A stretch of DNA of 64,000 nt, taken from the NCBI RefSeq assembly GCF_026343945.1, contig NZ_JAPKNJ010000002.1, positions 1,030,533 to 1,094,532 on the forward strand, written 5' to 3'. The DNA is from Kaistia algarum. GTDB taxonomy: Bacteria > Pseudomonadota > Alphaproteobacteria > Rhizobiales > Kaistiaceae. Numbering within the stretch: position 1 is the stretch's first letter; each line of letters begins with the position of its first letter. This document shows positions 1 to 48,173 of the stretch, piece after piece. The notes beneath the pieces were generated by a model. That model was given only the letters and a program-made list of their open reading frames with translations. It searched no databases and had not been told where the DNA came from. The translations under genes were made by a program, and so were the position numbers.

Positions 1-638
1 AGTTCACCGTAGCGGCTCTCGTCGCCGAACATGTCCTTCGCGCGCTTCTTCAGCATATTGTAGATACGGTCCGTGTTGACCGGACCTGGATTGACACCGA
101 CGACGCGGATCTTGTCGTCGAGGCTGGAGCCGCCGAGCGCGCGGGTGAAGTGCATCAGGCTCGCATTGCCCACGGCGCCGGCGATGTAGCGCGGGTCGGT
201 GACCTCGCCGCCATTGCCGATATTGTTGATGATGACGCCGCCGCCCGCCGCCTTCATGCGCGGATAATAGAGCCGGCACAGATTGATATAGCCGAAGACC
301 TTCAGCTCCCAGCCGGCGCGCCACTTGGCCTCGTCGACGTCGAACAACGAGCCTGAGGGGATGACGCCAGCATTGTTGACGAGGATGTCCACGTCGCCGA
401 CGGCATCCGCGAGCCGCTCCGCCGCGCCGCTTTCCGTCAGGTCCATGGGGAAGAGCTCGACCGAGAGCTCGGGCGCTTCGGCGAGTATCTCGGCGCGGAT
501 CGCATGAAGCTTCTCGACATTGCGCGCCGTCAGGCGCACCTCGCAGCCTTCATCGGCAAAGGCCCTGGCAAGCCCGGCCCCGATCCCCTGCGAGGCACCG
601 GTGATGAGCACCTTCTTGCCGGTCAGACGCAGATCCAT
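1..638 (-). CDS. SDR-family oxidoreductase, non-canonical active site (3' end outside window)
   Basis: Short-chain dehydrogenase/reductase fold, last visible gene of the minus-strand operon. The first 212 residues are visible. The nucleotide-binding motif TGASQGIG is at residues 13-20 and NNAG at 88-91. The catalytic Tyr is present (Y151), but the usual Lys four residues on is Ala155 (YIAGA) and the usual Ser 13 residues before Tyr is Asn138. The Ser-Tyr-Lys triad is therefore incomplete, so it may not be a typical dehydrogenase. The start is the ATG at 638, with AGGAGAAT-like sequence upstream. It follows the binding-protein gene ending at 733 after about 95 bases. The C-terminus lies beyond position 1. 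Family is certain; substrate is unknown. Confidence 0.85.
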   Translation of the reverse strand, partial: MDLRLTGKKVLITGASQGIGAGLARAFADEGCEVRLTARNVEKLHAIRAEILAEAPELSVELFPMDLTESGAAERLADAVGDVDILVNNAGVIPSGSLFDVDEAKWRAGWELKVFGYINLCRLYYPRMKAAGGGVIINNIGNGGEVTDPRYIAGAVGNASLMHFTRALGGSSLDDKIRVVGVNPGPVNTDRIYNMLKKRAKDMFGDESRYGE

Positions 639-732
639 GAAATTCTCCTGTTGTGGCAATGGGTCGGGCCGGTTGCGGCATGCGACGCGCTCGCATGGAC
701 CCGGCCGCTCGTGAAGGGTGAATGGGCGCGGC

Positions 733-1662
733 TCATCGATCCGATCCGATCGTGCGGACATCGCGCCAGAACGCCATGGTGCTGGCTTCCTCCGGCGGGA
801 CGGAGCGGGAAAGCTGGCCATGCTCGAACAGGAACCGCTCGGCATCCCGCACGCGGGCGGGATCGATATAGCCGATGCCCCTCGCCGCCCCATCCCCGAG
901 ACGGGCGAGCGCGGCGACCTCGCGGATCATGATGGCCTGATGCGCGGAATCGAGATCCGGGCTGCGGCGCAGGACGGCGGCGACCGCCTCGTCCTGCCGT
1001 TCGAAGGATCTGTGCCATCCGCGCAGGCTCGCCGTCAGGAAACGGCCCACGACATCGGGCCTGTCCTGCAAGGTGCTATCCGCGGCGATGATCGGATCGC
1101 GCGGGATGACGATGCCGAAATCGGCCGGATCGAACGCAACGAGATCGTCGATGCCGGACGCTTCGAGCTTCGGCAACTGGTTGTAGAATGTCGCCGCGGC
1201 GACGGCGACCTCGCCATCGACGAAAGGCTGCATGCTGGCCGCCTGCACCACCTCGTCGACCGTGGAGAGATCCACGCCGGCCCGCCGCAGCATCGCACGC
1301 AGGATGAGATGCACGCCGGTGTACCACGTGCTCACCCGCCGGCCCGCGAAGTCCGCCAGCGACCGGATGCCGGATCCGCGCCGGGCAATATAGACGACAT
1401 CGATCTTCTGGAAGAGCGCGGCGATCGCCACCACGGGGAGACCTTCGGCACGCGCCGCGAGCACGCTCTCGAGGCCCCCGCCCTGCGCGAAATCCGCTTC
1501 ACCCGTCGCGACGGCGACCTCCGGATCGACACCGGGGCCCCCGACGCGAATATCGACGTCCAGGCCGGCCTCGGCATAATAGCCGGCGTCCTCGGCCAGA
1601 TAATATCCGGCGAACTGGGCCTGATGCAGCCATTTGAGCTGAAGCGAGACGTGATCCGTCAT
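733..1662 (-). CDS. NMT1/THI5-like binding protein lacking a signal peptide
   Basis: A 309-residue type 2 periplasmic-binding-fold protein of the NMT1/THI5/ThiY group, whose characterised members bind pyrimidine thiamin precursors and related heterocycles. The family motif LKWLHQAQFAGYYLAE is at residues 9-24, followed by GYYAEAGLDVDI and a GGPGVDPE loop. The mature-protein motif starts only eight residues after the initiator Met and there is no hydrophobic leader, so export is not expected. It overlaps the oxidoreductase upstream by four bases (ATGA) and no ABC permease or ATPase is in this operon. It lacks the Cys-rich motif of the HMP-forming THI5 enzymes. It could be a cytoplasmic ligand carrier or an enzyme; both are inference. 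Confidence 0.85.
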   Translation of the reverse strand: MTDHVSLQLKWLHQAQFAGYYLAEDAGYYAEAGLDVDIRVGGPGVDPEVAVATGEADFAQGGGLESVLAARAEGLPVVAIAALFQKIDVVYIARRGSGIRSLADFAGRRVSTWYTGVHLILRAMLRRAGVDLSTVDEVVQAASMQPFVDGEVAVAAATFYNQLPKLEASGIDDLVAFDPADFGIVIPRDPIIAADSTLQDRPDVVGRFLTASLRGWHRSFERQDEAVAAVLRRSPDLDSAHQAIMIREVAALARLGDGAARGIGYIDPARVRDAERFLFEHGQLSRSVPPEEASTMAFWRDVRTIGSDR

Positions 1663-3065
1663 TCCTGCCCGTCCCGTGTTGCTTCCAAAACAGCCGAGAG
1701 CGGCACGGGCCTGAGCGGGATACGTGGCGGGTTGAAGCCAGCCTCGCGCGGCGTGATGCCGGTCTCGGCGGCTGCGATGTCCGCGATGGCGGCGCCGCAG
1801 ATGCGTCCCTGGCAGCGTCCCATGCCGGCCCGCGTCCAGATCTTGGCGCCCGCGACGGCGTCGGTCCCCGCAGCGAAGGCTGAAGCGATTTCGGCGCGCG
1901 TGATTTCTTCGCAGCGGCAGACGATCGTGTCGTCCTGGGCCAATGTCGCGAGGTCGGCGGGCGGCGCATAGAGCCGCCCGAGGCCATCGGAAAAGGCACG
2001 CGCCCGGGCGAGCTGTTCCCCGAGGCTCGCGCGCTCGCTCTCGTCGCCTGCGGTATCGGCGCCGAGGTCGGCCGCAGCAGAGAGCCCGGCGAGGCGACCC
2101 GAGAGCCGGGCCGGAACGGCGCCGGCAATGCCCGTGACTTCCCCGGCGGCATAGACGCCTTCAACCGAGGTGCGTCCGCTCGCCCGGTCCGTGATGCAAT
2201 GCCAGCCGCCGAGCGCCGGATCATGCTCGTGCCGGCAGCGCAGCAGCGCCGTCAGCTCGATCATCGGCCGGAAGCCCCAGCCGACCAGCAGCGCATCGAT
2301 CCCGCCGATGGTCTCGGAACGATCGCGATCGATTCGCCCGCTGCGATCGACCGGCGCGATGCGGATAGCCGTGACGCGCTCATCGCCGATCGCCTCGGTG
2401 ACGATCCAGCCGCTGCGCCGCTCGGGAATGGCACGGGCCGCCACCAACAGCCTAGCCGCCTCGCGCCAGCGGCCGGGATGGCGCGCGAGATGAGCGATGA
2501 TCGCCAAATCGGTGTGCCGGGCCTCGATCAGCGCAACCGGCGGCTTGCCGAGCTTCACCAGCGTCTCGGCCACCGCCAGCAGGAACGGCCCGCTGCCGGC
2601 GAGCACGACTCGCTCGCCGGCACTCGCCCCGCCGAGCTTGGCGAGGCGCTGGCCGGCGCCCGGCGTCATGACACCGGGCAAGGTCCAGCCGGGGAATGGC
2701 ATCGCGCGGTCATGCGCGCCGGTCGCGACGATGATGGCGCGCGGCACGAATTCGATCGGGCCGTCCGCCGTATTCGCCAGAACGCGCCGATCCGGAAAGG
2801 CAGCGAAAACCTCGGCGCCGGCATGGAAGGCAACACCGCTGGCCTGGGACTTGGCGATGGCCGCCGCCCCCTCCTCGCCCTGCACGGAGAGCGGCGCAGC
2901 CCCCGTCGGGTCCTGCATCCAGTATTGTCCGCCCGGACGAAATCCGGCGTCGACGAGGTCGACCGCAATGCCCGCTTCCGCCGCGGCCCGCGCGGCTTCG
3001 AGACCGGCCGGGCCGCCGCCGACGACGAGCAGATCCGTCTCGATCCGCCTCATGGGTCCACTCAT
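1659..3065 (-). CDS. FAD/NAD(P)-binding oxidoreductase with BFD-like [2Fe-2S] domain (HcnB/OoxA-like)
   Basis: Predicted 468-residue flavoprotein subunit of a multi-subunit amine or amino-acid oxidase of the HcnB/OoxA/sarcosine-oxidase-like class. The N-terminal dinucleotide fold shows LLVVGGGPAGLEA and a central VATGAHDRAMPFPGW segment. The C-terminus has clustered Cys (CRCEEIT, then RCQGRIC) typical of a BFD-like [2Fe-2S] domain. The reading frame is open far upstream, but the start is set at the ATG at 3065 because it overlaps the stop of the ferredoxin-like gene by four bases and puts the GGGPAG motif about 15 residues in. It would accept electrons from the DAO-type subunit at 3313-4479 through the small ferredoxin-like subunit. 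Substrate unknown. Confidence 0.88.
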   Translation of the reverse strand: MSGPMRRIETDLLVVGGGPAGLEAARAAAEAGIAVDLVDAGFRPGGQYWMQDPTGAAPLSVQGEEGAAAIAKSQASGVAFHAGAEVFAAFPDRRVLANTADGPIEFVPRAIIVATGAHDRAMPFPGWTLPGVMTPGAGQRLAKLGGASAGERVVLAGSGPFLLAVAETLVKLGKPPVALIEARHTDLAIIAHLARHPGRWREAARLLVAARAIPERRSGWIVTEAIGDERVTAIRIAPVDRSGRIDRDRSETIGGIDALLVGWGFRPMIELTALLRCRHEHDPALGGWHCITDRASGRTSVEGVYAAGEVTGIAGAVPARLSGRLAGLSAAADLGADTAGDESERASLGEQLARARAFSDGLGRLYAPPADLATLAQDDTIVCRCEEITRAEIASAFAAGTDAVAGAKIWTRAGMGRCQGRICGAAIADIAAAETGITPREAGFNPPRIPLRPVPLSAVLEATRDGQE

Positions 3066-3316
3066 GAGCGCACCGTCTCGACGCGCATGCCGGCGCGGAT
3101 CGGCGTCACGCAGGCGCGTACGCCCTCGCGCCCATCGACACGGACCAGGCAATCGAAGCACACGCCCATGCCGCAGAAGAGTCCGCGCGGCGCGCCGTCC
3201 TTCGCCGTATGACGAAGCACGGCATTCAGCTCGCGATGGAGCAGCGCGCCCAGCGGGCGCCCCGCCTCCGCCTCGACCGCGCGGCCATCGAGATCGATGG
3301 TGACGAGCGCGCTCAT
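3062..3316 (-). CDS. small [2Fe-2S]-binding subunit (HcnA-like)
   Basis: An 84-residue plant-type ferredoxin-fold protein. The Cys pattern CGMGVCFDC followed by a fourth Cys in GVRAC is the usual [2Fe-2S] ligand set of the HcnA/SoxA-N-terminal family. It overlaps both neighbours by four bases (start 3316 with the DAO gene stop, stop 3062 with the next start), which implies tight co-translation and 1:1:1 stoichiometry. Together with the genes at 1659-3065 and 3313-4479 it forms a complete heterotrimeric FAD/[2Fe-2S] dehydrogenase set. This is the electron-transfer subunit; no substrate specificity can be read from it. Confidence 0.9.
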   Translation of the reverse strand: MSALVTIDLDGRAVEAEAGRPLGALLHRELNAVLRHTAKDGAPRGLFCGMGVCFDCLVRVDGREGVRACVTPIRAGMRVETVRS

Positions 3317-4479
3317 GCGGCCGCCCTCCTGTCGAACCGGGCCGGGTCATAGAGATCGCGCCGGAACGGGCTTTCGCGGCCGGCGACGAGGTCCGCGATG
3401 ATGCGGGCCATGCCGAGCGAGCGCACGAAGCCGGTACCGCCATCGCCCGCGGCGACGAAGAGGCCGTCCGGCCCCGCCGGCCCGGTCAGGAAACGATCAT
3501 CCGGCGTCACCGCCTCGTAGCGCACCCAGGAGCGCAGCAGGTCGATCTCTGCGAACTTCGGAAAGAGGAAGAGCAGTGTCGCGATGGAATCGCGGATGAA
3601 GGCGCGGTCGACCTCGGGAATATCGTCCGGACTGCCGGCCGCCGTGACGCCGCCTTCGAGGACGGTGTTGAACAGGATCTGGCCGCTCATCGCCTGCTGG
3701 ATCTGCGTATAGCCGGCATCGACGCCGCCTTCCGCCTTGCAGGCACCGACGACGGTGCGGATCGAACGCGGGACCGAGACGGTGGCGAGACACTGCGCCT
3801 TGCGCGGCACGATCGGCAACTGGACACCCGCCGTCGCCGCGAGCTTCGCGGTCCACGGGCCGCCGGCAATCACGACGATCCCCGCCTCGATCGGCCCATC
3901 GGCCGTCTCGACGCCCGCGATGCGCCCGCCGACGACCCGCAGCGCCGTCGCCGGATTTCGGCTCACCAGCGTTGCCCTCGCCGCCTGCGCGGCTTCGAGC
4001 AGGCGGCGCACGGCGAGGAAGGGATTGACGACGGCCGAATTCGGCGACCAGGTCGCGGCATGGATCGGACCGGTCAGCTCCGGCTCGATGCGGCGCACGG
4101 CCTCGGGATCGAGCAGCGTCGGCGAAAGGCCGGCTGCGGTCTCGATGCCGATCCACTCATCGGCGGAGCGGCGCTCGCTCTCCTGCTTCAGGAACCGCAA
4201 CTGGCCGCAGCGGGAATATTCGAAGTCCGGCGCGGCCTCGGCAAACGCCGCCCATTCGTCGCAGCACCATTTGAGGAGCGGCAGTTCGTCCTCGTCCATC
4301 ATATGCGTGCCAATACAGGCGAGGCTCGCGCCGGAGACCGCGCCGCCCGGCACGCCCTGCTCGATGATGACGACGCGGCGGCCCGCAACGGCGAGCGCGC
4401 GCGCAACGGCCGCGCCCACCACCCCGGCGCCCACGACGACCGCGTCCGCCTTCATGCCCGCACCCGGTTTCATCCCCAT
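3313..4479 (-). CDS. FAD-dependent amino-acid/amine oxidoreductase (DAO family)
   Basis: A 388-residue DAO-fold flavoprotein, the substrate-oxidising subunit of the heterotrimer. The N-terminal FAD motif reads VVVGAGVVGAAVARAL, and the C-terminal GDGGTGFVRSLGMA segment is typical of the FAD site in glycine/sarcosine/D-amino-acid oxidases. Family members oxidise a C-N bond in a primary or secondary amine. Possible starts are the Met codons at 4479, 4473 and 4455; 4479 is preferred because it overlaps the binding-protein gene that stops at 4470. Placed between two leaderless binding proteins, it suggests oxidation of a small cyclic or N-substituted amine. That substrate class is inference. Confidence 0.88.
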   Translation of the reverse strand: MGMKPGAGMKADAVVVGAGVVGAAVARALAVAGRRVVIIEQGVPGGAVSGASLACIGTHMMDEDELPLLKWCCDEWAAFAEAAPDFEYSRCGQLRFLKQESERRSADEWIGIETAAGLSPTLLDPEAVRRIEPELTGPIHAATWSPNSAVVNPFLAVRRLLEAAQAARATLVSRNPATALRVVGGRIAGVETADGPIEAGIVVIAGGPWTAKLAATAGVQLPIVPRKAQCLATVSVPRSIRTVVGACKAEGGVDAGYTQIQQAMSGQILFNTVLEGGVTAAGSPDDIPEVDRAFIRDSIATLLFLFPKFAEIDLLRSWVRYEAVTPDDRFLTGPAGPDGLFVAAGDGGTGFVRSLGMARIIADLVAGRESPFRRDLYDPARFDRRAAA

Positions 4480-5417
4480 GCGGCGCTCCGCACAGCCTCC
4501 GGCGCAGCGCGCCAGAAGCGATCGTCGACCAGACCCTCTTCCGCCGGCGCGTGCCCTTCGACTTCCGACATGGCGACCAGCGCCTGGCGGATATGCTTCG
4601 GATCGGGATAGCCGAGCCCCTGCGTCAGGGTCGCGCCGGCCAGCGCGAGCGCGCGGATATCGGCCAGCTGGCCCTCCTGTTCGAGCCGCGCCATATCCGG
4701 CCGCAGCCGGCAGCAGAGCGCGATCGCTGCTTCGAGATTGTGGAAGGCCTTGGTCCAGCCCGTCAGCACGGCATTGACCACGGCCTGAACGATGTGCGGG
4801 TTGGCGGCGACGAAATCGCGCCGGGCGATGAGCCCATCCTTGAGCAGCGACGCGCCATAATCGGCGGCGCGGAAGAGGACGAAATCGTCGAGCGATCCGG
4901 CCGCGTGCTCCAGATGATGGATCTCGTGATAGGTCGTCATCTGCGCGCAGTCGACACGACCGTCCATCATGGCGCCGACCGTGTCGCCCACCGCAATCCG
5001 CTCATAGGCGTCGAGCGCGAGGCCGGCGCGCTTCAGCATGAAGGTGAGTTCGAGGTCTTCGCGGCCCGGCCAGACGCCGATGCGATGGCCGGCAAGATCC
5101 GTGGGCCGCGCAATGCCCGCACTGCGCCGTGCTGGATAGACCAGCGCGCTCTCCTGCTGGATCGCGAGCAGGAAAACCAGTTCCTCCGAACGGCCGCTTT
5201 CCAGCATGTGCGACGGGCTCGCCACGGCGAAATCGACGTCGCCATCCAGCAGTGCCGCGATCGGGCCCTTGGCGAAATCGAGCGGCACACATTTGAGGTC
5301 CAGCCCGACATCGCGCGCCAGCCCCTCATGCTCGGCGATCAGATAGCCGGCGAATTGCGGCTGCGGGTGCCAGAGAAGGCGGATCTTGATGGGCTGCACG
5401 TCGCCTCGCCTATCCAT
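4470..5417 (-). CDS. second NMT1/THI5-like binding protein lacking a signal peptide
   Basis: A 315-residue NMT1-type binding-fold protein. The family motif is recognisable but divergent (LLWHPQPQFAGYLIAEHEG, beginning near residue 13), and the IGVWPGREDLELTFMLKRAGL segment matches the hinge region of the family. The open frame extends to 5513, but the ATG at 5417 is preferred: it overlaps the aldehyde dehydrogenase stop by eight bases and places the fold at the N-terminus as in the homologue at 733-1662. No signal sequence is visible from this start. Two leaderless copies around the oxidase set are unusual for a family normally secreted to the periplasm. Function beyond ligand binding is unknown. 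Confidence 0.82.
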   Translation of the reverse strand: MDRRGDVQPIKIRLLWHPQPQFAGYLIAEHEGLARDVGLDLKCVPLDFAKGPIAALLDGDVDFAVASPSHMLESGRSEELVFLLAIQQESALVYPARRSAGIARPTDLAGHRIGVWPGREDLELTFMLKRAGLALDAYERIAVGDTVGAMMDGRVDCAQMTTYHEIHHLEHAAGSLDDFVLFRAADYGASLLKDGLIARRDFVAANPHIVQAVVNAVLTGWTKAFHNLEAAIALCCRLRPDMARLEQEGQLADIRALALAGATLTQGLGYPDPKHIRQALVAMSEVEGHAPAEEGLVDDRFWRAAPEAVRSAAWG

Positions 5418-6930
5418 AACGCTTGCCACCGGCGAACCAGTCGTCGAACCGCTCCGCCGTCGAGACCAGCACGTTGCGCTTCCTCTGGTAGGAGCGGAGC
5501 GCGTCCCAGCCATTCTCGGTGCCGTAGCCGCTGTCGCCGAACCCGCCCCAGATCGAGCGCGGATCGTTCTTGTGATGATCGTTCACCCAGATCATGCCGG
5601 CCCGCACCTTGCCGGCCATCCGGTGCGCCCGCGCCACGTCGCGCGTCCAGATCGAGGCGCCGAGCGCATAGGGCGTGTCATTGGCGATCGCGAGCGCCTC
5701 GGCCTCGCCGGAGAACGGCGTCACGGCCGCGATCGGGCCGAAGACCTCCTCGCGGAACAGCGTCATCGACGGTGCGACATCGGCGAAGACCGTCGGCTCG
5801 ACAAAGTTGCCGCCCGAGAACGGTGCCGGAAGAGACGGCACGCCGCCACCCGCGACGAGCCTTGCGCCTTCCGCCTTGGCGGTCTCGATATAGGCGAGGC
5901 AGCGGTCGCGCGAGGTGGCCGAGATCACCGGACCGATATCGGTCGCAAGGTCGGCCGGATCGCCCTGCCGCAGCGCCTCGACGCGCGCCACGAAGGCCTC
6001 GATGAACGGCTCGTAGATCGCCTCCGCGACGATGAAACGGCTGGCGGAGACGCAGGTCTGTCCCGCCGCGACGAAGGCGGCGAAGACGGCGCCGGCCGCC
6101 GCTTCGTCGATGTCGCTGTCCTCGAAGATCACGACCGGCGTCTTGCCGCCGAGCTCCAGCGTGCAAGGCACGAGGCGCGCGGCAGCCGCGGCCGCGACCT
6201 TGCGGCCCGTGCCCGTGCCGCCGGTCAGGTCGATATGGCGGACGGCCGGTGCGTTGCAGACGAGCGAGCCGGTCGTGCCGTCGCCGGTGACGACATTGAC
6301 GACCCCCGCCGGAAGGCCGGCCTCGCGGCACCATTCCGCCAGCAGCAATGGGGTGGCCGGGGCGAGTTCGGATGGCTTGACCACCACCGTATTGCCGGCG
6401 GCGAGCGCGGCGGCCAGCTTCTTGACGAGAATGAGGATGGGATGGTTCCACGGCGTCAGCAGCGCGCAGACGCCATGCGACTCATAGGCGGTATAGGAGA
6501 GGAAGCCACCGCGCAGGCGATTGGATTCGCCTTCAAGGCCCGCGGCGATGCCGCCGAAATAGTCGAGCCACTCCGGAATACGGCCCATCTGCGCGCGCAT
6601 CTCGCGGATCGGCCGGCCGGTGATCGCCGATTCGAAGGTCGCCAGCTCGCCGATGCGGCTGCGCACGATCTCGGCCAGTGCGCGCAGATGCCGGCCACGG
6701 TCGAGCGCATCCAGCGCGCCCCAGGCCGGCGCCGCCGCCGAAGCGGCGTCCATCGCCGCCGCAACATCGTCGGCTCCCGCGAGCGGCACGGCGCCGAAGC
6801 GCGCGCCGCTGGCGGGACTGACGACCGGGATCATCGCCGCCGAACGGGCCTCCTGAAAGGCGCCGCCATAATGCAGCAGCCGGCCCGACAAGAACGGCAG
6901 TTCCGCCCAGCCTGCGGTGTCGGCCGTCAT
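5410..6930 (-). CDS. NAD(P)-dependent aldehyde dehydrogenase
   Basis: A 506-residue aldehyde dehydrogenase superfamily member of normal length. It would oxidise an aldehyde to the carboxylate with NAD(P)+. The general base is Glu259 in LELGGKTP and the nucleophile is Cys293 in GQTCVSASR; the PWNHP and VVKPSELAP cofactor-binding segments are also intact. The start at 6930 overlaps the stop of the luciferase-like gene by four bases. In this operon it probably oxidises an aldehyde produced by the monooxygenase or the amine oxidase. The substrate cannot be told from sequence. Confidence 0.92.
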   Translation of the reverse strand: MTADTAGWAELPFLSGRLLHYGGAFQEARSAAMIPVVSPASGARFGAVPLAGADDVAAAMDAASAAAPAWGALDALDRGRHLRALAEIVRSRIGELATFESAITGRPIREMRAQMGRIPEWLDYFGGIAAGLEGESNRLRGGFLSYTAYESHGVCALLTPWNHPILILVKKLAAALAAGNTVVVKPSELAPATPLLLAEWCREAGLPAGVVNVVTGDGTTGSLVCNAPAVRHIDLTGGTGTGRKVAAAAAARLVPCTLELGGKTPVVIFEDSDIDEAAAGAVFAAFVAAGQTCVSASRFIVAEAIYEPFIEAFVARVEALRQGDPADLATDIGPVISATSRDRCLAYIETAKAEGARLVAGGGVPSLPAPFSGGNFVEPTVFADVAPSMTLFREEVFGPIAAVTPFSGEAEALAIANDTPYALGASIWTRDVARAHRMAGKVRAGMIWVNDHHKNDPRSIWGGFGDSGYGTENGWDALRSYQRKRNVLVSTAERFDDWFAGGKRYG

Positions 6931-10131: not shown

Positions 10132-10142
10132 CGGATCTCTCC

Positions 10143-11543: not shown

Positions 11544-11591
11544 GCCTTCATCCGACTGGGGATCGGCCGCGCATCGCGCCTGCCAGGATGG

Positions 11592-38623: not shown

Positions 38624-38756
38624 TTCTTCACCTTTCCCAGAGGGAGAGGTCGACGGCGAAGCCGGCGGGTGAGGGGTTAGGGAATTCTCCGGATGAGGCC
38701 GTAACCCCTCACCCGGCCCTATCGGGCCGACCTCTCCCTCTGGGAGAGGTAAAGAA
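38624..38756. repeat. large inverted repeat, RIME-like intergenic element (part 2)
   Basis: Arms at 38624-38652 and 38728-38756 are inverted copies (TTCTTCACCTTTCCCAGAGG against CCTCTGGGAGAGGTAAAGAA). A second nested pair surrounds GTGAGGGGTTA and TAACCCCTCAC. The right arm ends on the A of an ATG at 38756, so the GGAGAGG there belongs to the repeat; this is a reason to place the next gene start at 38771. The bases 38399-38770 hold nothing else that I could identify. Confidence 0.75.
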
Positions 38757-38770
38757 TGAAAGAGGCCCCC

Positions 38771-40111: not shown

Positions 40112-40917
40112 CCTATATGACGATCAACACGTCCCCCGAAGCCGCGATCGACCTGATCATCGACCAGGCCGGCAAGACCTTCCCGACGCCTCGCGGCCCG
40201 GTCGTCGCGCTCGCACCGATCTCGCTGAAGGTGGCGCGCGGTTCGTTCGTTGCGCTGATCGGCCCCTCCGGCTGCGGCAAGTCCACACTGCTGCGCATGG
40301 TCGCCGGGCTCGAACAGCCGGACGACGGCGCGATCCTGATCCGCTCGAAGCATCCCGAGCAGTTCCGGAAAGACGGCGAACTCGGCATCGCCTTCCAGGA
40401 TCCGGCCTTGCTGCCTTGGCGCAGCGTCTTCGCCAATGTCGCCTTCCCGCTGCAGATCCTCGGCCGCCCGATCAAGCCGAACGCCGATAAGATCCGCGCG
40501 CTGATCGAACTGGTGGGGCTCAAGGGCTATGAGGAGGCGCTGCCGAGCCAGCTTTCGGGCGGCATGCGCCAGCGCGTCGCGATCGCCCGCTCGCTCGTCT
40601 CCGATCCTTCCGTGCTGCTGCTCGACGAGCCCTTCGGCGCGCTCGACCAGATCCTGCGCCGCCAGATGAATGTTGAACTGCAGCGCATCTGGGCGGCGCG
40701 GCAAACGACGACGCTGCTCGTCACGCACGGCATCGACGAGGCGGTCTTCCTCGCCGACGAGGTCGTCGTCCTGCATGCCAATCCGGGGCGCATCGCAGAG
40801 ATCATATCGGTTCCGTTCCCCCGGCCGCGCACGCCCGACCTGTTCTCGAACCCCGATTTCCACGCGCTCTGCGACCGCCTGACGACGAGCCTGCATGGGC
40901 CGGGAGCGCTCGCATGA
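40108..40917 (+). CDS. ABC transporter ATP-binding protein (SsuB/TauB-like, second system)
   Basis: A 269-residue importer ATPase with Walker A GPSGCGKST, signature LSGGMRQRVAIA and Walker B VLLLDEP. The H-loop reads VTHGIDEA with Gly where Asp is usual. The frame is open from 39628, but the ATG at 40108 overlaps the deaminase stop and starts a normal domain. It overlaps the fused permease by ATGA. The binding protein for this system is most likely the one at 43280-44260. Confidence 0.93.
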   Translation: MTYMTINTSPEAAIDLIIDQAGKTFPTPRGPVVALAPISLKVARGSFVALIGPSGCGKSTLLRMVAGLEQPDDGAILIRSKHPEQFRKDGELGIAFQDPALLPWRSVFANVAFPLQILGRPIKPNADKIRALIELVGLKGYEEALPSQLSGGMRQRVAIARSLVSDPSVLLLDEPFGALDQILRRQMNVELQRIWAARQTTTLLVTHGIDEAVFLADEVVVLHANPGRIAEIISVPFPRPRTPDLFSNPDFHALCDRLTTSLHGPGALA

Positions 40918-42467
40918 ACGGGGCGATACGCGAGAACGCGCGCGTCCTCTTCGGCGTGCTCCTGTTCTTCGCGCTCTGGGAATTCCTCGGCAGCCAGACG
41001 AGTTGGGGCGTCGCCATGTTCCCGGCGCCCTCGCGCATACTGTCGCAGGCCTTCGCCGATCGCGAGCTCTATGCCCTGCACGGAATTGCGACGATCCGCA
41101 CCTCGGCGATCGGCTTTGCGATCGGCTGCTCGTTCGCCCTCCTCGCCGCCTTCCTGTTCTGCCTGTTTCCAGCGCTGGAGCTCGCTTTTCGCGGCGTCAA
41201 CATCGCGCTCTTCGCTATGCCGGCGATTGTGATCGGCCCGCTGCTGGTGCTGTTTTTCAACGGCGACTGGCCGCAGACCATCCTCGCCGCGCTGATGGTC
41301 TATTTCCCGGCCATGTCGGCGACGCTGCTCGGCCTGCGCCAGGTCGATCCGCGCCTTGCGGATCTCGTCGCGGCCTATGGCGGCGGCGAGGCGAAGCTGA
41401 TGCTGCATGTGCGGCTGCGCGGCGCCCTACCCTCGCTCTTCGCCGGCTTTCGCGTCGCCGCGCCGCTGGCCGTGCTCGGCGCGGTGCTTGGCGAATTCGG
41501 CTCGGGCACGCGCTGGGGCTTCGGCGCGTTCCTGCTCTCGGCGCTGCCGCAGGGCAACCCGGCCCGACTCTGGGGCGTCGGCCTCGCGGCCAGCGCCATC
41601 GCGCTCGCCGGCTATGCCTTGTTCCTTCTCCCCGGTCGCCGCCTGACCACAACGACTTCGGTTGTCACGCTCTCGGCCGTTTCGCCGGCCGCGATCGGAG
41701 TTTCGGCCGGGGGCCGGACAAAGCGTATTGTCTATGCCGCAGCGGCACTCGCCCTGCCCTTCCTGCTCTGGTGGCTGATGGTCACGCTCACCAAGGTGAG
41801 CCCGATCATCGCGCCGGGGCCGGTGCAGACGGTGATGTTCCTGTTCGAAGGCAAGGGAGCCGCGGCGGCGCGTCATGCGCTTGGCCTGGCGCTCGGCCAG
41901 ACGCTGCCGGTCGCGGCGCTCGGCCTCTTCGCCGGCCTTGCCTTCGCCTTCGTTCTCGCGGGTCTATCGTTGGTCGCCCCGGCGCTAGCGCGCGCGATGA
42001 TGCCCGTGGCGATGGTGGCGCAGAACATGCCGCTGGTCGCCGTCGTGCCGCTGGTGACGCTGATATTCGGCCGCGGTGTCACGGCGTCGGTATTCATGGC
42101 CGTGCTGGTGGTGTTCTTCCCGGCCTATGTGCTGCTGCAACAGGGCTTCACGACGGTGCCGCGCGCGGCAAACGACCTCGTCTCCACCTATGGCGGCGGA
42201 AGGCTCAAGACCCTCGTCTTCGTCGCCGTCCCCTATTCTATCGGCCATCTCTTCGCCGCCGCCCGCCTCGTCGCGCCGCAGGCGCTGCTCGGCGTCATGG
42301 TCGCCGAATGGCTGCTCACCGGCGTCGGGCTCGGCAATCTGCTCAACGTCTCGCGCGGCGGCCTCGACTACGACATGATCTGGGCCGGCGCACTGATCTC
42401 GATCCTCATTTCGGTCGCCGCCTATGAGGCGGTGGGCCTCATCGAACGAAAGGTCGTGCGCCGATGA
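40914..42467 (+). CDS. ABC transporter permease with two fused permease domains
   Basis: A 517-residue membrane protein containing two complete SsuC-type permease domains in one chain, about residues 1-245 and 270-517. Each has its own EAA-like loop (DPRLADLVAAYGGGEAKLMLHVRLRGALP and PRAANDLVSTYGGGRLKTLVFVAVPYS regions). The first importer of the island (13745-15234) has the two domains as separate genes. The fusion guarantees one-to-one pairing. It overlaps both neighbours by ATGA. Confidence 0.92.
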   Translation: MNGAIRENARVLFGVLLFFALWEFLGSQTSWGVAMFPAPSRILSQAFADRELYALHGIATIRTSAIGFAIGCSFALLAAFLFCLFPALELAFRGVNIALFAMPAIVIGPLLVLFFNGDWPQTILAALMVYFPAMSATLLGLRQVDPRLADLVAAYGGGEAKLMLHVRLRGALPSLFAGFRVAAPLAVLGAVLGEFGSGTRWGFGAFLLSALPQGNPARLWGVGLAASAIALAGYALFLLPGRRLTTTTSVVTLSAVSPAAIGVSAGGRTKRIVYAAAALALPFLLWWLMVTLTKVSPIIAPGPVQTVMFLFEGKGAAAARHALGLALGQTLPVAALGLFAGLAFAFVLAGLSLVAPALARAMMPVAMVAQNMPLVAVVPLVTLIFGRGVTASVFMAVLVVFFPAYVLLQQGFTTVPRAANDLVSTYGGGRLKTLVFVAVPYSIGHLFAAARLVAPQALLGVMVAEWLLTGVGLGNLLNVSRGGLDYDMIWAGALISILISVAAYEAVGLIERKVVRR

Positions 42468-42913
42468 CATCCGGAATCCGCTGGCACCACGCCTCGCTGA
42501 CCGTCGCCGAGATCGACCCGGCCATCACCTTCTTCGGCGCCGTCTTCGGGTTCGAACCGATCTTCATCGAGCGCGGCCTTTCCGACGACATCGCGGCGCT
42601 GACCGGCAAGCCCGGTCTCTCGGCCGATTTCACGCAGATGCGCTCCAGTGCCTATCCGCTGATCCTGGAGTTGATCGCCTTCCATGCCGAGGGCGATATT
42701 CGCCCCCATGGCGATGCCCTGCCCTGGCGGCCCGGCGCCGGGCATGTCGCCTTCCATGTGGATGATTTCGATAGTGTGGTGGCGACCGTCGTCGCCCATG
42801 GCGGCACGGTCATGGGCCGCGCCATCGAATTCCCCGGTGGCCGCTCGATTTACTGTCGGACGCCCGGCGGGGCCTTCATCGAGATCGAACATCTCCACGA
42901 GGCAACACCATGA
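42464..42913 (+). CDS. VOC-family (glyoxalase/dioxygenase fold) protein
   Basis: A 149-residue vicinal-oxygen-chelate protein: WHHASLTVAEIDPAITFFGAV at the N-terminus and HVAFHVDDFDSVVATV with the C-terminal FIEIEHLHE. The metal ligands expected in the family (His near residue 5, His in GHVAFHV, Glu in FIEIE) appear to be present. VOC enzymes include ring-cleaving dioxygenases, isomerases and glyoxalases. Its coupling to the transporter genes suggests an early step on the imported compound. No specific reaction can be assigned. Confidence 0.87.
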   Translation: MTSGIRWHHASLTVAEIDPAITFFGAVFGFEPIFIERGLSDDIAALTGKPGLSADFTQMRSSAYPLILELIAFHAEGDIRPHGDALPWRPGAGHVAFHVDDFDSVVATVVAHGGTVMGRAIEFPGGRSIYCRTPGGAFIEIEHLHEATP

Positions 42914-43279: not shown

Positions 43280-44260
43280 ATGAAGTCCACATTGACCCGC
43301 CGCGGCTTCGGCATGGCAGCGCTCGCCGGCCTTGCTGCCGCCACCCTGCCGCCCGGCCGCGCCCGCGCCGCCGGCACCCCGCTCAATTTCCAGTCGATCT
43401 GGATCAACGATCCCGAATTCTCCGGTTATTTCATTGCGCTCGACAAGGGCTATTACACGGCCGAAGGCCTCGACGTGAACTACATCCCCGGCGGCCCGGA
43501 CGTGATCCCGCAGGCCTCGCTTCTGACGGGGAAGGCCGATATCGCGCTGACCTCGCTGATCGAGACGGCGAGCGCCGTCTCGGAGAAAGGCGCCCCCTTC
43601 AAGATCGTCGGCGCGCAGTTCCAGAAGAGCCCCGACAGTGTCATCAGCCTTGAGGCCACCGGCATCAAGACGATGAAGGACCTCGCCGGCAAGACCGTCG
43701 CCTGCTCACCGCTCAGTCTCGGCACCTTCAAGGTTCTGCTCGGCTTGAACGGCGTCGCCGAGGATCAGGTCAAGATCGTCCCCTATGCCTTCGATCCGAC
43801 CCCGCTCGCCACGGGCCAGGTCGACGCGGTGGTCGATTTCATGACCTCGCTGCCCTTCATCGTCGAGCAGACCTCCGGCAAGAAGGCCAGCTATCTGCTG
43901 TTCTATGACTACGGCATGCCCTTCGGGCAGGACTTCGTGACCGTCACCGAGGACACGCTGAAGAACCGCCGTAAGGACGTGGTCGGCTTCCTGCGTGCCA
44001 GCCGCAAGGGCTGGGACGATGATTTCGCCGATCCGCTCAAATACACCAAGGAATTCGAGAACAGCTGGTACAAGGGCAATGGCTACACGCCGGAGGCGTC
44101 CGAGTTCCACTCCAAGATCCAGATTCCGCTGATGCAGAACCCGAAGGGCGTCTTTACGATTGATGACGAATCGATCGAAAAGAATATCGCCTCGCTCGAA
44201 AAGATCGGCGTAAAGGCGAACAAGGATCTGTTCGATACCTCCATACTCGCCGAGCTCTGA
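43280..44260 (+). CDS. NMT1-type ABC transporter substrate-binding protein, Tat-type leader
   Basis: A 326-residue exported binding protein. The leader MKSTLTRRGFGMAALAGLAA has the twin-arginine motif TRRGF and ends near ARAAGTP. The mature part has WINDPEFSGYFIALDKGYY and YIPGGPDVIPQ, the family hallmarks in diverged form. It has a strong AAGGAG ribosome site before the ATG at 43280. The ATPase and fused permease at 40108-42467 have no other binding protein, so this one probably serves them. The Tat leader implies folding before export. Confidence 0.92.
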   Translation: MKSTLTRRGFGMAALAGLAAATLPPGRARAAGTPLNFQSIWINDPEFSGYFIALDKGYYTAEGLDVNYIPGGPDVIPQASLLTGKADIALTSLIETASAVSEKGAPFKIVGAQFQKSPDSVISLEATGIKTMKDLAGKTVACSPLSLGTFKVLLGLNGVAEDQVKIVPYAFDPTPLATGQVDAVVDFMTSLPFIVEQTSGKKASYLLFYDYGMPFGQDFVTVTEDTLKNRRKDVVGFLRASRKGWDDDFADPLKYTKEFENSWYKGNGYTPEASEFHSKIQIPLMQNPKGVFTIDDESIEKNIASLEKIGVKANKDLFDTSILAEL

Positions 44261-44287: not shown

Positions 44288-45391
44288 ATGGTAAACCTCT
44301 TCACGCCCCTGACACTCAGGGGCGTTACTTTCAAGAACCGGATCCTCGTATCGCCCATGTGCCAGTACGCGGCCGTGGATGGTCACGTCACGGACTGGCA
44401 TATCGAGCATCACGGCCGTTTCGCCCTTGGCGGCGTCGGGGGTGCGCTGGTGGAGGCGACCGGCATCCTGCCCGAGGGCCGGATCACACCCGATTGCCTC
44501 GGTATCTGGGACGATGCCCATGTCGCGGGGCTTGCCCGCATCGTGGCGGGATATCACCGCCAGGGCGCCGCGATCGGCATCCAGCTGAGCCATGCCGGCC
44601 GCAAGGGCAGCTCGACCCCACCCTGGGACGGCGGCTGGGCCATTCCCGCCGATGACCCGCGCGCCTGGCAGACCGTCGCGCCCTCGGCGATCCCCTATCA
44701 CGAAGACTGGCCGGTGCCGCATGCGCTGAGTATCGATGAGATCGCCGGGATCACGGCGGCCTTCGTCGCCGCGGCGAAGCGAGCCGTCGCCGCCGGCTTC
44801 GACTTCGTCGAGATCCATGGCGCCCATGGCTATCTGCTGCATTCCTTCGTCTCGCCGGTCTCGAACGAGCGCACGGACGCCTATGGCGGCACGGCGGAAA
44901 ACCGGATGCGCTTTTCGCTGGAGGTCGCGAGCGCGGTCCGCGCGGCGATCCCCGACACCATGCCACTGTTCTATCGCGCCTCCTGCATCGACCGCATCGA
45001 GGGCGCCGGCCTGACGCTCGACGACACCGTACCGCTCGCCATCGCGCTGAAAGGCGTCGGCGTCGATTTGATCGATTGTTCGGCCGGCGGCGTGCTGGTC
45101 CGCACCAATCCGGGCCATATCAAGGAAGGCCCCGGCTTCCAGATCGGCTTCGCCGACCGCATCCGCCGCGAGGCCGGCATCGCCACCATGGCGGTCGGCG
45201 GGATCACCGAGGGCCGTCAGGCTGACGCGGTGATCACCGAGGGCAAGGCGGATTTCGTGGCGATCGGCCGCGAGATGCTGTCGGATTCGAACTTTCCCTA
45301 TCGCGCCGCGCTGGCGATCGGCATCGAAAAGCCGGCCTTCGCGCTGCCGCTCCGCTATGCCTTCTATCTCCAGTTCCGGGAGCCGGCATGA
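44288..45391 (+). CDS. Old Yellow Enzyme family NADH:flavin oxidoreductase (YqjM/XenA-like)
   Basis: A 367-residue FMN enzyme. SPMCQYAAVDGHVTDWH carries the Cys25/Tyr27 pair that defines the thermophilic-like (YqjM) class. HAGRKGS and FVEIHGAHGYLLHSFVSP contain FMN and substrate-binding His residues. It would reduce an activated C=C, nitro group or C=N with NAD(P)H. The stop overlaps the aldo/keto reductase start by ATGA. It may saturate a ring double bond in the catabolic route. Confidence 0.92.
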   Translation: MVNLFTPLTLRGVTFKNRILVSPMCQYAAVDGHVTDWHIEHHGRFALGGVGGALVEATGILPEGRITPDCLGIWDDAHVAGLARIVAGYHRQGAAIGIQLSHAGRKGSSTPPWDGGWAIPADDPRAWQTVAPSAIPYHEDWPVPHALSIDEIAGITAAFVAAAKRAVAAGFDFVEIHGAHGYLLHSFVSPVSNERTDAYGGTAENRMRFSLEVASAVRAAIPDTMPLFYRASCIDRIEGAGLTLDDTVPLAIALKGVGVDLIDCSAGGVLVRTNPGHIKEGPGFQIGFADRIRREAGIATMAVGGITEGRQADAVITEGKADFVAIGREMLSDSNFPYRAALAIGIEKPAFALPLRYAFYLQFREPA

Positions 45392-46461
45392 GCGCGAGGC
45401 TCGCTCAGGTCCCGCTTGGCAAGAGCGGCATCAGCGTCTCGCGCGTCGGTTTCGGCTCGGCTCCGCTCGGCGATTTCTTCGAGAGGCTCGATGAGCGGAC
45501 CGCCATCGGGACCGTCGAGGCGGCGTTCTCTGCCGGCATCAATCTGATCGATACCTCGCCGCATTATGGCAACGGCCTCGCCGAGCATCGCGTCGGCACG
45601 GCGCTGCGCGCGGTCCCTCGCGAGGCCGTCGTGATCTCGACCAAGATCGGCCGCGTCATGACCCCCGGCGCGTCCCGCTTCGACGAGCCCGCGCCGCCGC
45701 TCGCGCGCGGCTTCGTCGGCAGCCTGCCGCACCGTCCGCGCTTCGACTATTCCTATGACGGCGTCATGCGCTCCTTCGAGCAGTCGCTGCTGCGCCTCGG
45801 CACCGACCGGATCGACATTCTCCTCGTGCACGATATCGACCCCTGGTCGCAGGGCGAGGACATGGTCGAGATCCGCTATCGCGAGGTGATCGACAGCGGC
45901 TATCGCGCCCTCGACGAATTGCGTTCCTCGGGCGTCGTCCGGGCTATCGGTCTCGGGCTCGACGACCACGATTATTGCGAGCGCTTCCTGCGCGACGCCG
46001 ATTTCGACGCGGTCCTGCTCGCCGGCCGCTATTCGCTGCTGGAGCAGCCGGCCTTGCCAACGCTGCTGCCGCTGGCGCTCGAAAAAGGCGTCGGCGTGAT
46101 GCTCGGCGGCATCTTCAATTCCGGTATCCTCGCAACGGGCGCCATTCCCGGCGCGCGCTACAATTATGAAGCCGCTTCGCCGGAGATCATGGCGCATGTC
46201 GCCCGGATCGAGGCTGTCTGCGCGGGCCATGGCGTGCCGCTGGCGCGCGCCGCCGTGCAGTTTGTCCTCGGCCATCCAGCGGTCTCGACGCTGGTCCTCG
46301 GCGCCGTCAAGCCGGCAGAGATCGCCCGCAACCTCGCCGCGCTCGACGAGCCCGTACCCGCCGCGTTGTGGGACGAACTCAAGGCCGAGGGCCTGCTCGA
46401 TCCAGCCGCGCCCACGCCATCCGAAACAACAACAACCATGCCTTCCCGGGAGATCGCCTGA
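45388..46461 (+). CDS. aldo/keto reductase (D-threo-aldose / pyridoxal 4-dehydrogenase-like branch)
   Basis: A 357-residue aldo/keto reductase with catalytic Asp55 and Tyr60 (LIDTSPHYGNGLAE), Lys86 (ISTKIGR) and His in ILLVHDID. The long insert with RFDYSYDGVMRSFEQSLLRLG is characteristic of the L-fucose/D-threo-aldose 1-dehydrogenase and pyridoxal 4-dehydrogenase branch. Next to a nucleoside hydrolase, oxidation of a released sugar such as ribose, or of an aldehyde on the base, is equally possible. Confidence 0.88.
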   Translation: MSARLAQVPLGKSGISVSRVGFGSAPLGDFFERLDERTAIGTVEAAFSAGINLIDTSPHYGNGLAEHRVGTALRAVPREAVVISTKIGRVMTPGASRFDEPAPPLARGFVGSLPHRPRFDYSYDGVMRSFEQSLLRLGTDRIDILLVHDIDPWSQGEDMVEIRYREVIDSGYRALDELRSSGVVRAIGLGLDDHDYCERFLRDADFDAVLLAGRYSLLEQPALPTLLPLALEKGVGVMLGGIFNSGILATGAIPGARYNYEAASPEIMAHVARIEAVCAGHGVPLARAAVQFVLGHPAVSTLVLGAVKPAEIARNLAALDEPVPAALWDELKAEGLLDPAAPTPSETTTTMPSREIA

Positions 46462-46462
46462 C

Positions 46463-47422
46463 ATGCCGCTGAACGCCCCCGCCACCACGCTCTGGATCGA
46501 CACCGACACCGGCTCCGACGACGCTGTCGCGCTCGTCATCGCGTTCAAGCATCCCGGAATCGAGATTGCCGGCATCTCCGTCGTTGCCGGGAACTGCTCG
46601 CTCGATAAGGCGCTGCAGAATGCGCTCTACACGCGCGAGATCTGCGGCGCGGAGCACGTGCCCGTCTATGCCGGCCTCGCCGTGCCGCTGATCCGCGGAC
46701 CGTTCCATGCCGAGAACGTGCATGGGGTCGACGGCATGGGCGATATCGGCCTGCCCCTCTATGGCCGCGTGCCTGACGAAGGCCACGCCATCGACAAGAT
46801 GATCGAGGCGATCCTGGCCCGGCCCGGCGAGATCACGCTGGTCACGCTCGGCCCGCTCACCAACATCGCCGTCGCGCTCGCCCGCGAGCCGCGGATCGCG
46901 AAGGCGGTTAAGCATTGCGTGATCATGGGCGGAATTGGTGACGGACCCGGCAATGTGACGCCGGCTTCGGAATTCAATATCTACGCCGACCCCGATGCGG
47001 CGCGTATGGTGTTCCAGTCCGGCATGCCGATCGTGATGTGCGGCTGGGATGTGTCCTGGCGCTATGCCGTGGTCGAGCCGGCCGATACGGACGAGCTGAA
47101 GCGGGTCGGGGGAAAGCTCGGTGATTTCTGCGTCGATATCCAGCGCTTCCTGGTCGAGTTCGCGACCAAGGTTTCGGGCCTGCCGGGCATCGATCTGCCC
47201 GATCCGATCACCGTGGCGATCGCCATCGATCCGTCGATCGTGACGAAGTCGAGCGAAGCTTATGTCGAGGTGGTCAATGGCGACGGCCCGGCGCTCGGCC
47301 AGACCATTATCGACCGCAAGCTGCATGCCGGAAAACCGGTCAACGCCACGGTCGTTGACGTCGCCTCGCGCGAGAAGTTCATGGCGATGCTCACCGCCGC
47401 CGTTTCCGGCTCGCCCGCATGA
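46463..47422 (+). CDS. nucleoside hydrolase (IunH-type), second copy
   Basis: A 319-residue nucleoside hydrolase with IDTDTGSDD (Asp13, Asp15, Asp19, Asp20), IMGG, TPASEFNIYADPDAA and the C-terminal LPDPITVAIAIDPS. It is closer to the canonical active site than the copy at 8225-9169. The frame is open from 46166, but the ATG at 46463 follows the aldo/keto reductase stop by one base and starts the fold. The next gene downstream is the ECF S component, a pairing that implies import of a nucleoside followed by base release. Confidence 0.93.
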   Translation: MPLNAPATTLWIDTDTGSDDAVALVIAFKHPGIEIAGISVVAGNCSLDKALQNALYTREICGAEHVPVYAGLAVPLIRGPFHAENVHGVDGMGDIGLPLYGRVPDEGHAIDKMIEAILARPGEITLVTLGPLTNIAVALAREPRIAKAVKHCVIMGGIGDGPGNVTPASEFNIYADPDAARMVFQSGMPIVMCGWDVSWRYAVVEPADTDELKRVGGKLGDFCVDIQRFLVEFATKVSGLPGIDLPDPITVAIAIDPSIVTKSSEAYVEVVNGDGPALGQTIIDRKLHAGKPVNATVVDVASREKFMAMLTAAVSGSPA

Positions 47423-47546: not shown

Positions 47547-47562
47547 CCGGCGAAAACGCCGG
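47547..47562 (+). other. hairpin in the S-component leader
   Basis: CCGGCG-AAAA-CGCCGG forms a perfect six-pair stem with a four-base loop 38 bases before the S-component start. No U-tract follows, so it is not a simple terminator. The 178-base leader 47423-47600 may hold a regulatory RNA, but no known class was recognised. Confidence 0.3.
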
Positions 47563-47600
47563 CGAGCTGACGCATTCACATCTTCCTGCTGGGGAATATC

Positions 47601-48173
47601 ATGAAGTTCGACAACAGAACGCTCGTCCTGATGGCCGCGGCCATCGTCATCAATATCGTCGTCGGCCAGATCGTATCCTGGGTGAAGCTGCCCTTGTTCC
47701 TCGATTCGATCGGCACGGTGCTTGTCGGCATCCTGGTCGGGCCGATTGCGGCTGCCGTCGTCGGCACGCTCGCCAACCTGATCTGGGGCCTGCTCTTCGA
47801 TCCGGTCGCCGCCGCGTTCTTCCCGGTCGCGCTGGTGATCGGCCTCACCGCCGGCATCCTCGCCCGCTATGGCTGGTTCTCCAGCTTGGCGAAGACAATC
47901 GTTGCCGGCGTGATCATCTGCGTGATCTCGACGATCGTCTCGATCCCGATCGTCGTCTACATGTTCGGCGGCGTCACCGGCTCAGGCACCGATTTCGCGA
48001 CCGCCTATATGCTGGCCATGGGCCAGAACCTGATCCAGTCGGTCGCGATCTCCAACCTCGTGCAGAACATGGGCGACAAGATCATCACCGCGGTCGTCGC
48101 GTTCCTGATCGCCAGCCGCCTGCCGCGCAACCTGACCTCGAGCCTGCCCTTCTTCGCCTATTCGCGGACCTAG
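47601..48173 (+). CDS. ECF transporter substrate-binding S component
   Basis: A 190-residue, almost wholly hydrophobic protein with about six membrane segments and the ECF S-type N-terminal pattern LPLFLDSIGTVLVGILVGP, GTLANLIWGLLFDP. It has no ATPase or T partner next to it; the shared energising module is probably that at 18389-20842, 27 kb away. S components of this general type are known for vitamins and for queuosine precursors; in gut clostridia an S component and a nucleoside hydrolase act together in queuosine salvage. The ligand here is not known. Confidence 0.85.
   Translation: MKFDNRTLVLMAAAIVINIVVGQIVSWVKLPLFLDSIGTVLVGILVGPIAAAVVGTLANLIWGLLFDPVAAAFFPVALVIGLTAGILARYGWFSSLAKTIVAGVIICVISTIVSIPIVVYMFGGVTGSGTDFATAYMLAMGQNLIQSVAISNLVQNMGDKIITAVVAFLIASRLPRNLTSSLPFFAYSRT

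Follow-up and report, generated by a model that had tools for sequence, protein, structure and literature searches.

What would a 48-kb island of Kaistia algarum break down, in which oxygenases, amidohydrolases and amidases share the DNA with two nucleoside hydrolases? The stretch analysed (the window, 64 kb, bases 1030533-1094532 of contig 2) stops at a contig end of a 5.26-Mb genome, and the island runs from an oxidoreductase gene at its left end to the S component of an energy-coupling factor (ECF) importer. An earlier note on this DNA had read the island as one regulon for a modified nucleoside or N-heterocycle. We found two conserved modules side by side (A and B) together with the ECF importer and the two nucleoside hydrolases and, with moderate confidence, we read the whole as a composite that serves the catabolism of a modified nucleoside. 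Its interest lies in module B, whose core is conserved and uncharacterised and whose signature protein resembles archaeosine synthase (ArcS).

Island proteins were scanned with Pfam and NCBIfam models, and curated NCBIfam cut-offs decided membership. All the families named in the earlier note were recovered, including nucleoside hydrolases, ECF parts, NMT1 importers, amidohydrolases, amidases, NodB-fold hydrolases and oxygenases. Beyond these, the scan added a sarcosine-oxidase-type pair, a class II aldolase, a GntR regulator, an alpha/beta hydrolase, PCC-domain, EutA-like and CobW proteins, the protein encoded at 32316-33293, an AraC regulator, a class III aminotransferase, an HDAC-like enzyme, two aldehyde dehydrogenases and an aldo-keto reductase. 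As judged by model scores, the names PuuE, HpaB, ArcS and CD3073 S component denote likeness and not membership, all four falling under the curated cut-offs. The tight operon coupling noted earlier was borne out, 13 of the 44 gene junctions being 4-bp overlaps. GC content across the island is 63-72% in 2-kb steps; no tRNA was detected in the window, nor any Rfam family at gathering scores, the preQ1 riboswitch included.

Nearly all island genes, from the oxidoreductase to the S component, were found by tblastn in the same order in three further genomes placed in the same genus (G099, G130 and G225). Matches overlapping a better one by at least 100 nt were dropped in the tiling, so that overlapping genes are under-counted, and gaps remain, for example the DAO and bicupin genes in G099 and NMT1a and HcnB in G130. 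Presence was then counted in 249 genomes from the order: the S component occurs in seven, the ArcS-like (DUF5591) gene of module B in five and both in four, all from one genus (the Kaistia group), while a fifth genome of that genus, G244, has neither. Module A stands alone in G087, from another family, with ECF S, T and two ATPase genes, alpha/beta hydrolase, GntR regulator, class II aldolase, NMT1 ATP-binding cassette (ABC) importer, amidase 1, bicupin, nucleoside hydrolase 1, luciferase-like monooxygenase (LLM) and oxidoreductase; no DUF5591 match and no match to the HpaB-like monooxygenase of module B at E 1e-120 were obtained there. A remoter form of module A, judged from the annotation, is present in Neorhizobium galegae, with a nucleoside hydrolase (61% to nucleoside hydrolase 1), an ABC importer, a class II aldolase, an LLM oxygenase, an alpha/beta hydrolase and a RidA gene. 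The idea of one regulon therefore finds no support. What stands of the earlier claim is the catabolism of a nucleoside or N-heterocycle, in keeping with the S component, the DUF5591 protein and the BMP transporters met elsewhere; what lacks support is the single regulon, the two modules being found apart elsewhere. The rare co-occurrence that the earlier note had named as a refutation was seen in part: the markers are together in the four Kaistia-group genomes and apart in the others that carry either.

The signature of module B is a stand-alone archaeosine-synthase-like protein of 341 aa (31287-32312, plus strand). PF17884 (DUF5591) is its sole Pfam match at E 0.001 (30.6 bits, above the Pfam cut-off of 26), and neither a TGT-like nor a PUA domain was found on the chain by Pfam at this threshold. 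Its predicted model matches AF0587 (PDB 2q07), which a profile search also retrieved, consistent with an ArcS-type domain fold. The motif PC-X3-KPY-X2-S-X2-H, which we take to define ArcS, is common to the protein and 2q07 and is present in 74 of 75 DUF5591 loci, a count that is partly circular because the loci were collected by a pattern overlapping it ([ML]PCTKTKP or YDDPGLFE; one genome per species, up to 10 kb covered on each side). Kaistia soli has the protein at 79% identity, and in K. hirudinis a locus matches it at 90%. The family comprises 624 clustered proteins at E 0.001, and its name appears in no open-licence PubMed Central paper among the matches listed. Even if the substrate differs from the one proposed below, the cluster defines a DUF5591 protein family recurring in several phyla.

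Conservation around this gene was measured in 30 loci of at least 20 kb out of 40 (L004-L043, the 10 shorter ones excluded), a homologue being counted at 45% identity or more; the overlap rule of the tiling was applied here too, so that these counts are low for overlapping genes. Four neighbours, all on the plus strand, form the core: the HpaB-like flavin monooxygenase (20997-22478; PF11794, PF03241; 27 of 30 loci), amidase 2 (22391-23686; NF006169 or PRK08310, 422.9 bits over a cut-off of 391; 28 of 30), an FMO-type flavoprotein (29623-31266; PF13738, PF13454; 27 of 30) and a 4,5-dihydroxyphthalate-decarboxylase-related protein (32316-33293; 28 of 30). Module B loci include Bradyrhizobium, Rhodobacteraceae, Roseomonas and relatives, Martelella, Ciceribacter and Parvibaculum. 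The HpaB-like protein is no HpaB member (312.3 bits against the TIGR02309 cut-off of 480.2), and among the 249 genomes the five with DUF5591, and no others, carry its orthologues at 85% or more. Twenty-nine other genomes hold relatives at 50-64% only, without DUF5591; seven such loci were read (L154-L160), with a flavin-reductase-like gene in five, a small conserved open reading frame in four and branched-chain-amino-acid-type ABC genes that by eye are common, pointing to another pathway.

The protein at 32316-33293 gave no NCBIfam model at E 0.01 and resembles an NMT1 binding protein (24 bits), but its chain starts at the domain with no leader (read by eye, as the hydropathy score did not discriminate) and it is probably cytoplasmic. 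Six of 60 listed rows from plasmid records are annotated as 4,5-dihydroxyphthalate decarboxylase, at 34-39% identity over nearly the full length, and a Gfo/Idh/MocA gene lies next to, or overlaps, that of several relatives. Together with the hydroxylases, this suggests that a hydroxylated ring acid is decarboxylated.

The rest of module B, again on the plus strand, is less constant. A PuuE-like NodB-fold hydrolase (23683-24606; 17 of 30 loci) stays under the allantoinase cut-off (TIGR03212, 317.8 against 424.6 bits). It is followed by a deaminase-type amidohydrolase 1 (24603-26114; PF01979, with HxH and HxHxxE; 20 of 30), a flavin reductase (26111-26617; PF01613; 9 of 30) and a EutA/arylmalonate-decarboxylase-like protein (26614-27336; PF17645; 9 of 30), which aligns to arylmalonate decarboxylases, and with 3dtv at a GTS stretch and a C-terminal Cys. 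A second NodB-fold protein, imidase/PgdA-like (27379-28275; 489.5 bits to 3qbu; 8 of 30), is a putative imidase. Farther on, a side-chain block (34357-38398) consists of a class III aminotransferase (34357-35817; 10 of 30), an HDAC-like amidohydrolase (35814-36962; 7 of 30) and aldehyde dehydrogenase 2 (36866-38398; 10 of 30). Amidohydrolase 2 (38756-40111; 14 of 30) passes the 8-oxoguanine deaminase cut-off (NF006055, 616.9 against 532 bits) and keeps its metal ligands in HxH and HxHxxE.

Nucleoside hydrolase 1 (8225-9169, minus strand; DTDTAGDD) and nucleoside hydrolase 2 (46463-47422, plus strand; DTDTGSDD; 304 bits with the longer open reading frame) both belong to IU_nuc_hydro by PF01156 and the DTD...DD motif. 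The second is 88-90% identical in three other Kaistia-group genomes and at 88% or more is confined, among the 249 genomes, to the four of that group with both markers. The ECF core (18389-20842, plus strand) comprises a CbiQ-type T component (18389-19183; PF02361) and two ATPases (19114-20025 and 20012-20842; PF00005), for which the dedicated ECF T and ATPase models score under cut-off. The S component (47601-48173, plus strand), of nucleoside type, closes the island on the right and is a relative, not a member, of the CD3073 family (NF045596, 130.6 against 180 bits). Relatives of it were found at E 1e-25 in 12 of 149 genomes from the phylum of a Lachnospiraceae metagenome-assembled genome (MAG), taken as Bacillota; a gene like nucleoside hydrolase 2 adjoins in three of the 12 loci (a fourth match, in L138, is weak, 3 kb off and not counted) and ECF ATPase genes lie near in nine. 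Flanking genes of the closest locus, L129, match annotated uridine phosphorylases (33-42%) and ribokinases (43-48%), among the matches listed. Judging by these neighbours, the importer most likely carries nucleosides in general; nothing links it to queuosine.

A second S component lies in Kaistia soli (G099, L094:5608-6174) between the PCC-domain and ECF T genes; it is 61-62% identical to that of the window, whose genome has the distant one only. The PCC-domain gene (17882-18349, plus strand; PF03479) adjoins ECF genes in G099 and G203 too. A 213-aa metagenomic protein, P0231, fuses a bicupin-like N-terminus with an S component on a 1318-bp contig and is probably a misjoin.

DUF5591 also occurs outside Alphaproteobacteria, in 35 loci (L044-L078) from Actinomycetota, Chloroflexota, an Elusimicrobia and a Lachnospiraceae MAG, and four sources labelled bacterium only. 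From 203 neighbours, 157 non-redundant ones were retained, 125 listed and 96 open reading frames chosen by hand for a Pfam census, to which L045 contributed none and in which some frames were wrong. Amidohydrolases, DUF1989, class III aminotransferase, aldehyde dehydrogenase, HDAC-like, class II aldolase and carbon-nitrogen hydrolase genes accompany DUF5591 in these loci. BMP/PnrA-type binding-protein genes lie near it in 13 of the 35, the three query proteins having been drawn from among these same loci; L049 gave an additional weak match outside this count. PnrA-type proteins bind purine nucleosides.

On the reading of a composite island for a modified nucleoside, nucleosides or bases would be taken up by the ECF importer and by two NMT1-type ABC importers, one in each module. 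That of module A (11657-15234, plus strand) has a substrate-binding protein (11657-12802), an ATPase (12900-13748) and permeases (13601-14494 and 14326-15234); that of module B (plus strand) has an ATPase with a fused double permease (40108-42467, the permease at 40914-42467) and a separate substrate-binding protein with a leader-like N-terminus (43280-44260; PF09084). The nucleoside hydrolases would split off ribose from the base. Module A could then perform a Rut-like oxidative ring opening with its LLM flavin monooxygenase of the NtaA/DmoA subfamily (6927-8228, minus strand; TIGR03860, 536.6 bits over a cut-off of 279.7), alpha/beta hydrolase (16879-17718, minus strand; PF12697), amidase 1 (10143-11780, minus strand; PF01425), bicupin (9166-10305, minus strand; PF07883, PF02311) and class II aldolase/adducin-family enzyme (15222-16025, plus strand; PF00596, above the cut-off of the PRK07044 subfamily).

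Module B would dismantle a purine-like base. An aminomethyl side chain may be turned into a carboxylate by the aminotransferase with the aldehyde dehydrogenase, and the HDAC-like enzyme may release N-acylated forms; the DUF5591 protein may act on a nitrile or amidine, or merely bind the base. Amidase 2 would yield an acid, which the protein at 32316-33293 would decarboxylate as a ring acid, and amidohydrolases 1 and 2 would deaminate. The HpaB-like and FMO-type oxygenases, supplied by the flavin reductase, could hydroxylate the five-membered ring, a cyclic ureide or imide could be opened by the PuuE-like and NodB-fold hydrolases, and a malonate-type product could lose its carboxyl group through the EutA-like protein. 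Which steps follow one another, and on what substrate, is proposed here from the gene set. A 7-deazaguanine of preQ1, preQ0 or queuine type appears to fit it best, as a good hypothesis and not a result, since such a substrate would explain why an ArcS-like protein, an aminotransferase with an aldehyde dehydrogenase, a ring-acid decarboxylase, guanine-type deaminases and ring-oxidising flavin enzymes travel together.

A bolder form of this proposal, which we hold to be doubtful, makes module B the first pathway that mineralises 7-deazapurines for carbon and nitrogen, its routes meeting at 7-carboxy-7-deazaguanine. Bases of preQ1 or queuine type would be oxidised at the aminomethyl group by the aminotransferase and aldehyde dehydrogenase, and those of preQ0 or archaeosine type unlocked at the nitrile or amidine by the stand-alone archaeosine-synthase-like enzyme; the common acid would then be decarboxylated, deaminated, hydroxylated and ring-opened. 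In other phyla the DUF5591 enzyme might take part in kindred routes of different make-up, supplied by BMP-type nucleoside importers. Queuine and other 7-deazaguanines are known micronutrients, obtained by synthesis or salvage. No pathway for their breakdown, and none described with the gene set of the island, as the earlier note had supposed, was found in the open-licence PubMed Central literature, among the matches listed. A conserved ring-degrading gene set with an archaeosine-synthase-like signature is a concrete candidate for 7-deazaguanine breakdown in soil, and the cluster also defines a nucleoside-type ECF importer in Alphaproteobacteria.

Several observations weigh against a modified nucleoside or against the 7-deazapurine form of it. 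The DUF5591 protein scores 27.2 of 600 and 24.2 of 440 bits with the NCBIfam ArcS models, and Foldseek alone found no match at E 0.001. The nearest relatives of nucleoside hydrolase 2 are pyrimidine-type hydrolases, and for the single BMP protein tested the nearest model is that of a putative B6 transporter, with a score far under cut-off (115 of 400 bits). An aminotransferase homologue at 45% or more is missing in 20 of the 30 module B loci, including Bradyrhizobium and Roseomonas. The alphaproteobacterial core is nearly absent from the 35 loci of other phyla (HpaB-like in one, the 32316-33293 protein in two, FMO-type, amidase 2 and PuuE-like in none), and most of the listed relatives of the 32316-33293 protein other than the six noted are named ABC substrate-binding proteins; this absence and the paucity of decarboxylase names make 7-deazapurine mineralisation less likely.

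Further points of this kind bear on a different explanation, in which two unrelated modules adjoin in Kaistia, A serving a nucleoside and B a non-nucleoside N-heterocyclic or aromatic amide or carboxylate brought in by its own NMT1 ABC importer. The modules are indeed found apart: besides module A in G087, module B extends in G010 from the HpaB-like gene to the aldo-keto reductase without nucleoside hydrolase 2 or the S component. No nucleoside hydrolase or S gene lies within up to 10 kb on either side of DUF5591 in the 75 loci (in Kaistia-group loci they sit farther away), and of 20 further genomes with DUF5591, drawn from these loci, only three have an S relative at E 1e-5. Module B is therefore tied to nucleosides by the Kaistia group and by the BMP transporters elsewhere. 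The kinship of the 32316-33293 protein with 4,5-dihydroxyphthalate decarboxylase would also suit an aromatic carboxylate, as would the HpaB relatives of genomes without DUF5591, which in the loci read often accompany, by eye, branched-chain-amino-acid-type ABC genes. However, nucleoside hydrolase 2 and the nucleoside-type S component stand at the end of module B in all four Kaistia-group genomes having it, BMP transporters lie near DUF5591 in other phyla, and the DUF5591 domain is related to an enzyme of 7-deazaguanine chemistry. A non-nucleoside heterocycle accounts for the core but not for the importers, and we regard this explanation as possible, though rather improbable.

Less likely again, and in our view unlikely, is an oxidised purine or a pterin (such as 8-oxoguanine or isoxanthopterin) as the substrate of module B, with amidohydrolase 2 as the first enzyme. 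The score and metal motifs of this enzyme argue for such a step, as do the second amidohydrolase and the PuuE-like gene and, at one locus, an Azospirillum brasilense relative of amidase 2 (L164:7980-9538, 49%) that adjoins hpxZ (oxalurate catabolism) and xanthine-dehydrogenase-family genes. But the island proteins scanned gave no match to the families of urate oxidase, hydroxyisourate hydrolase or OHCU decarboxylase, and the PuuE-like protein is no allantoinase by its cut-off. Moreover, the deaminase-like gene is kept in fewer than half of the loci, whereas the core holds the DUF5591 and decarboxylase-like genes, unneeded for urate chemistry. An oxidised purine or pterin thus accounts for the deaminase and not for the remaining genes.

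Salvage of queuosine or queuine for tRNA in the manner of Clostridioides difficile queK-qrtT-queL, and not breakdown, would fit the nucleoside hydrolase adjoining the ECF S component and the presence of a TGT gene in the genome. The queuine lyase QueL is a radical-SAM enzyme. In a search confined to the island, the proteins scanned include no radical-SAM Pfam family, and the window gave no Rfam match; salvage of this kind is therefore not supported. In addition, a preQ1 riboswitch turned up in none of the S-component loci scanned, the TGT gene lies 0.38 Mb away and the many oxygenases and hydrolases would be superfluous for salvage, which makes this explanation very improbable. Least credible is a chance pile-up of common catabolic genes that do not work together. 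Most of these families are indeed widespread in soil Alphaproteobacteria, but a gene order kept in four genomes, a core in 27-28 of 30 loci and the 4-bp overlaps at 13 of 44 junctions speak against it, and for module B it is refuted.

The remaining genes complete the picture. At the left end, on the minus strand, lie the oxidoreductase, a short-chain dehydrogenase/reductase (3-893; PF00106; its frame runs off the window; kept in G087, G099, G130 and G225), a FAD enzyme pair of sarcosine-oxidase/amine-dehydrogenase type with BFD-like alpha and DAO-type beta subunits (1659-4479; PF07992, PF17806, PF04324, PF01266) and aldehyde dehydrogenase 1 (5410-6930; PF00171). Two NMT1-fold proteins of module A on the same strand (733-1662 and 4470-5513; PF09084) have no recognisable signal peptide, as read from their N-termini, and no permease gene next to them; instead of binding solutes for import, they may act in the cytoplasm as sensors or enzymes. 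The other genes are on the plus strand: a GntR/FCD regulator (16099-16884; PF07729, PF00392), a CobW-type metallochaperone GTPase (28578-29591; PF02492, PF07683), an AraC-family regulator nearest FeaR (33306-34274; 177.8 bits against a cut-off of 199; 9 of 30 loci), a VOC-fold protein (42464-42913; PF00903) and an Old Yellow Enzyme with an aldo-keto reductase (44288-45391 and 45388-46461; PF00724, PF00248). Downstream of the island, 51239-54943 encodes a 1234-aa protein with 11 Sel1 repeats. In Rhizobium sp. ACO-34A (plasmid pRACO34Ac, L141:34455-37070), module B is preceded by NodB and asparaginase genes and followed by genes annotated as tRNA-specific adenosine deaminase and adenosine deaminase; an asparaginase-NodB pair is near module B also in L009, L010, L018 and L019.

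The island shares parts with several known systems and differs from each. With ArcS/TgtA2 and AF0587 (2q07), the Kaistia DUF5591 protein has the motif and, in its predicted model, the domain fold in common; it differs from ArcS/TgtA2 as a stand-alone bacterial protein in a catabolic cluster, far below the ArcS cut-offs. In C. difficile queK-qrtT-queL, a nucleoside hydrolase adjoins an ECF S component, according to excerpts of two reports (PMC11477304, PMC11130926). The island has the same pair (46463-47422 and 47601-48173) but differs in its dedicated ECF core and degradative enzymes, with no radical-SAM gene and no preQ1 riboswitch found. An LLM oxygenase and an alpha/beta hydrolase occur together in module A as in the Rut uracil pathway, and the Neorhizobium relative has a RidA gene as well, yet the models of RutA (54.3 of 498.3 bits), RutD (57 of 238) and RutF (61 of 255) score far under cut-off. 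Amidohydrolase 2 passes the cut-off for 8-oxoguanine deaminase (PRK08203 family), yet its cluster is without urate-degrading families among the proteins scanned, and the relative of 4,5-dihydroxyphthalate decarboxylase (Pht5) has no recognised phthalate genes nearby. Finally, PnrA/BMP purine-nucleoside ABC transporters are companions of DUF5591 in other phyla; in Kaistia, NMT1 ABC and ECF importers take their place.

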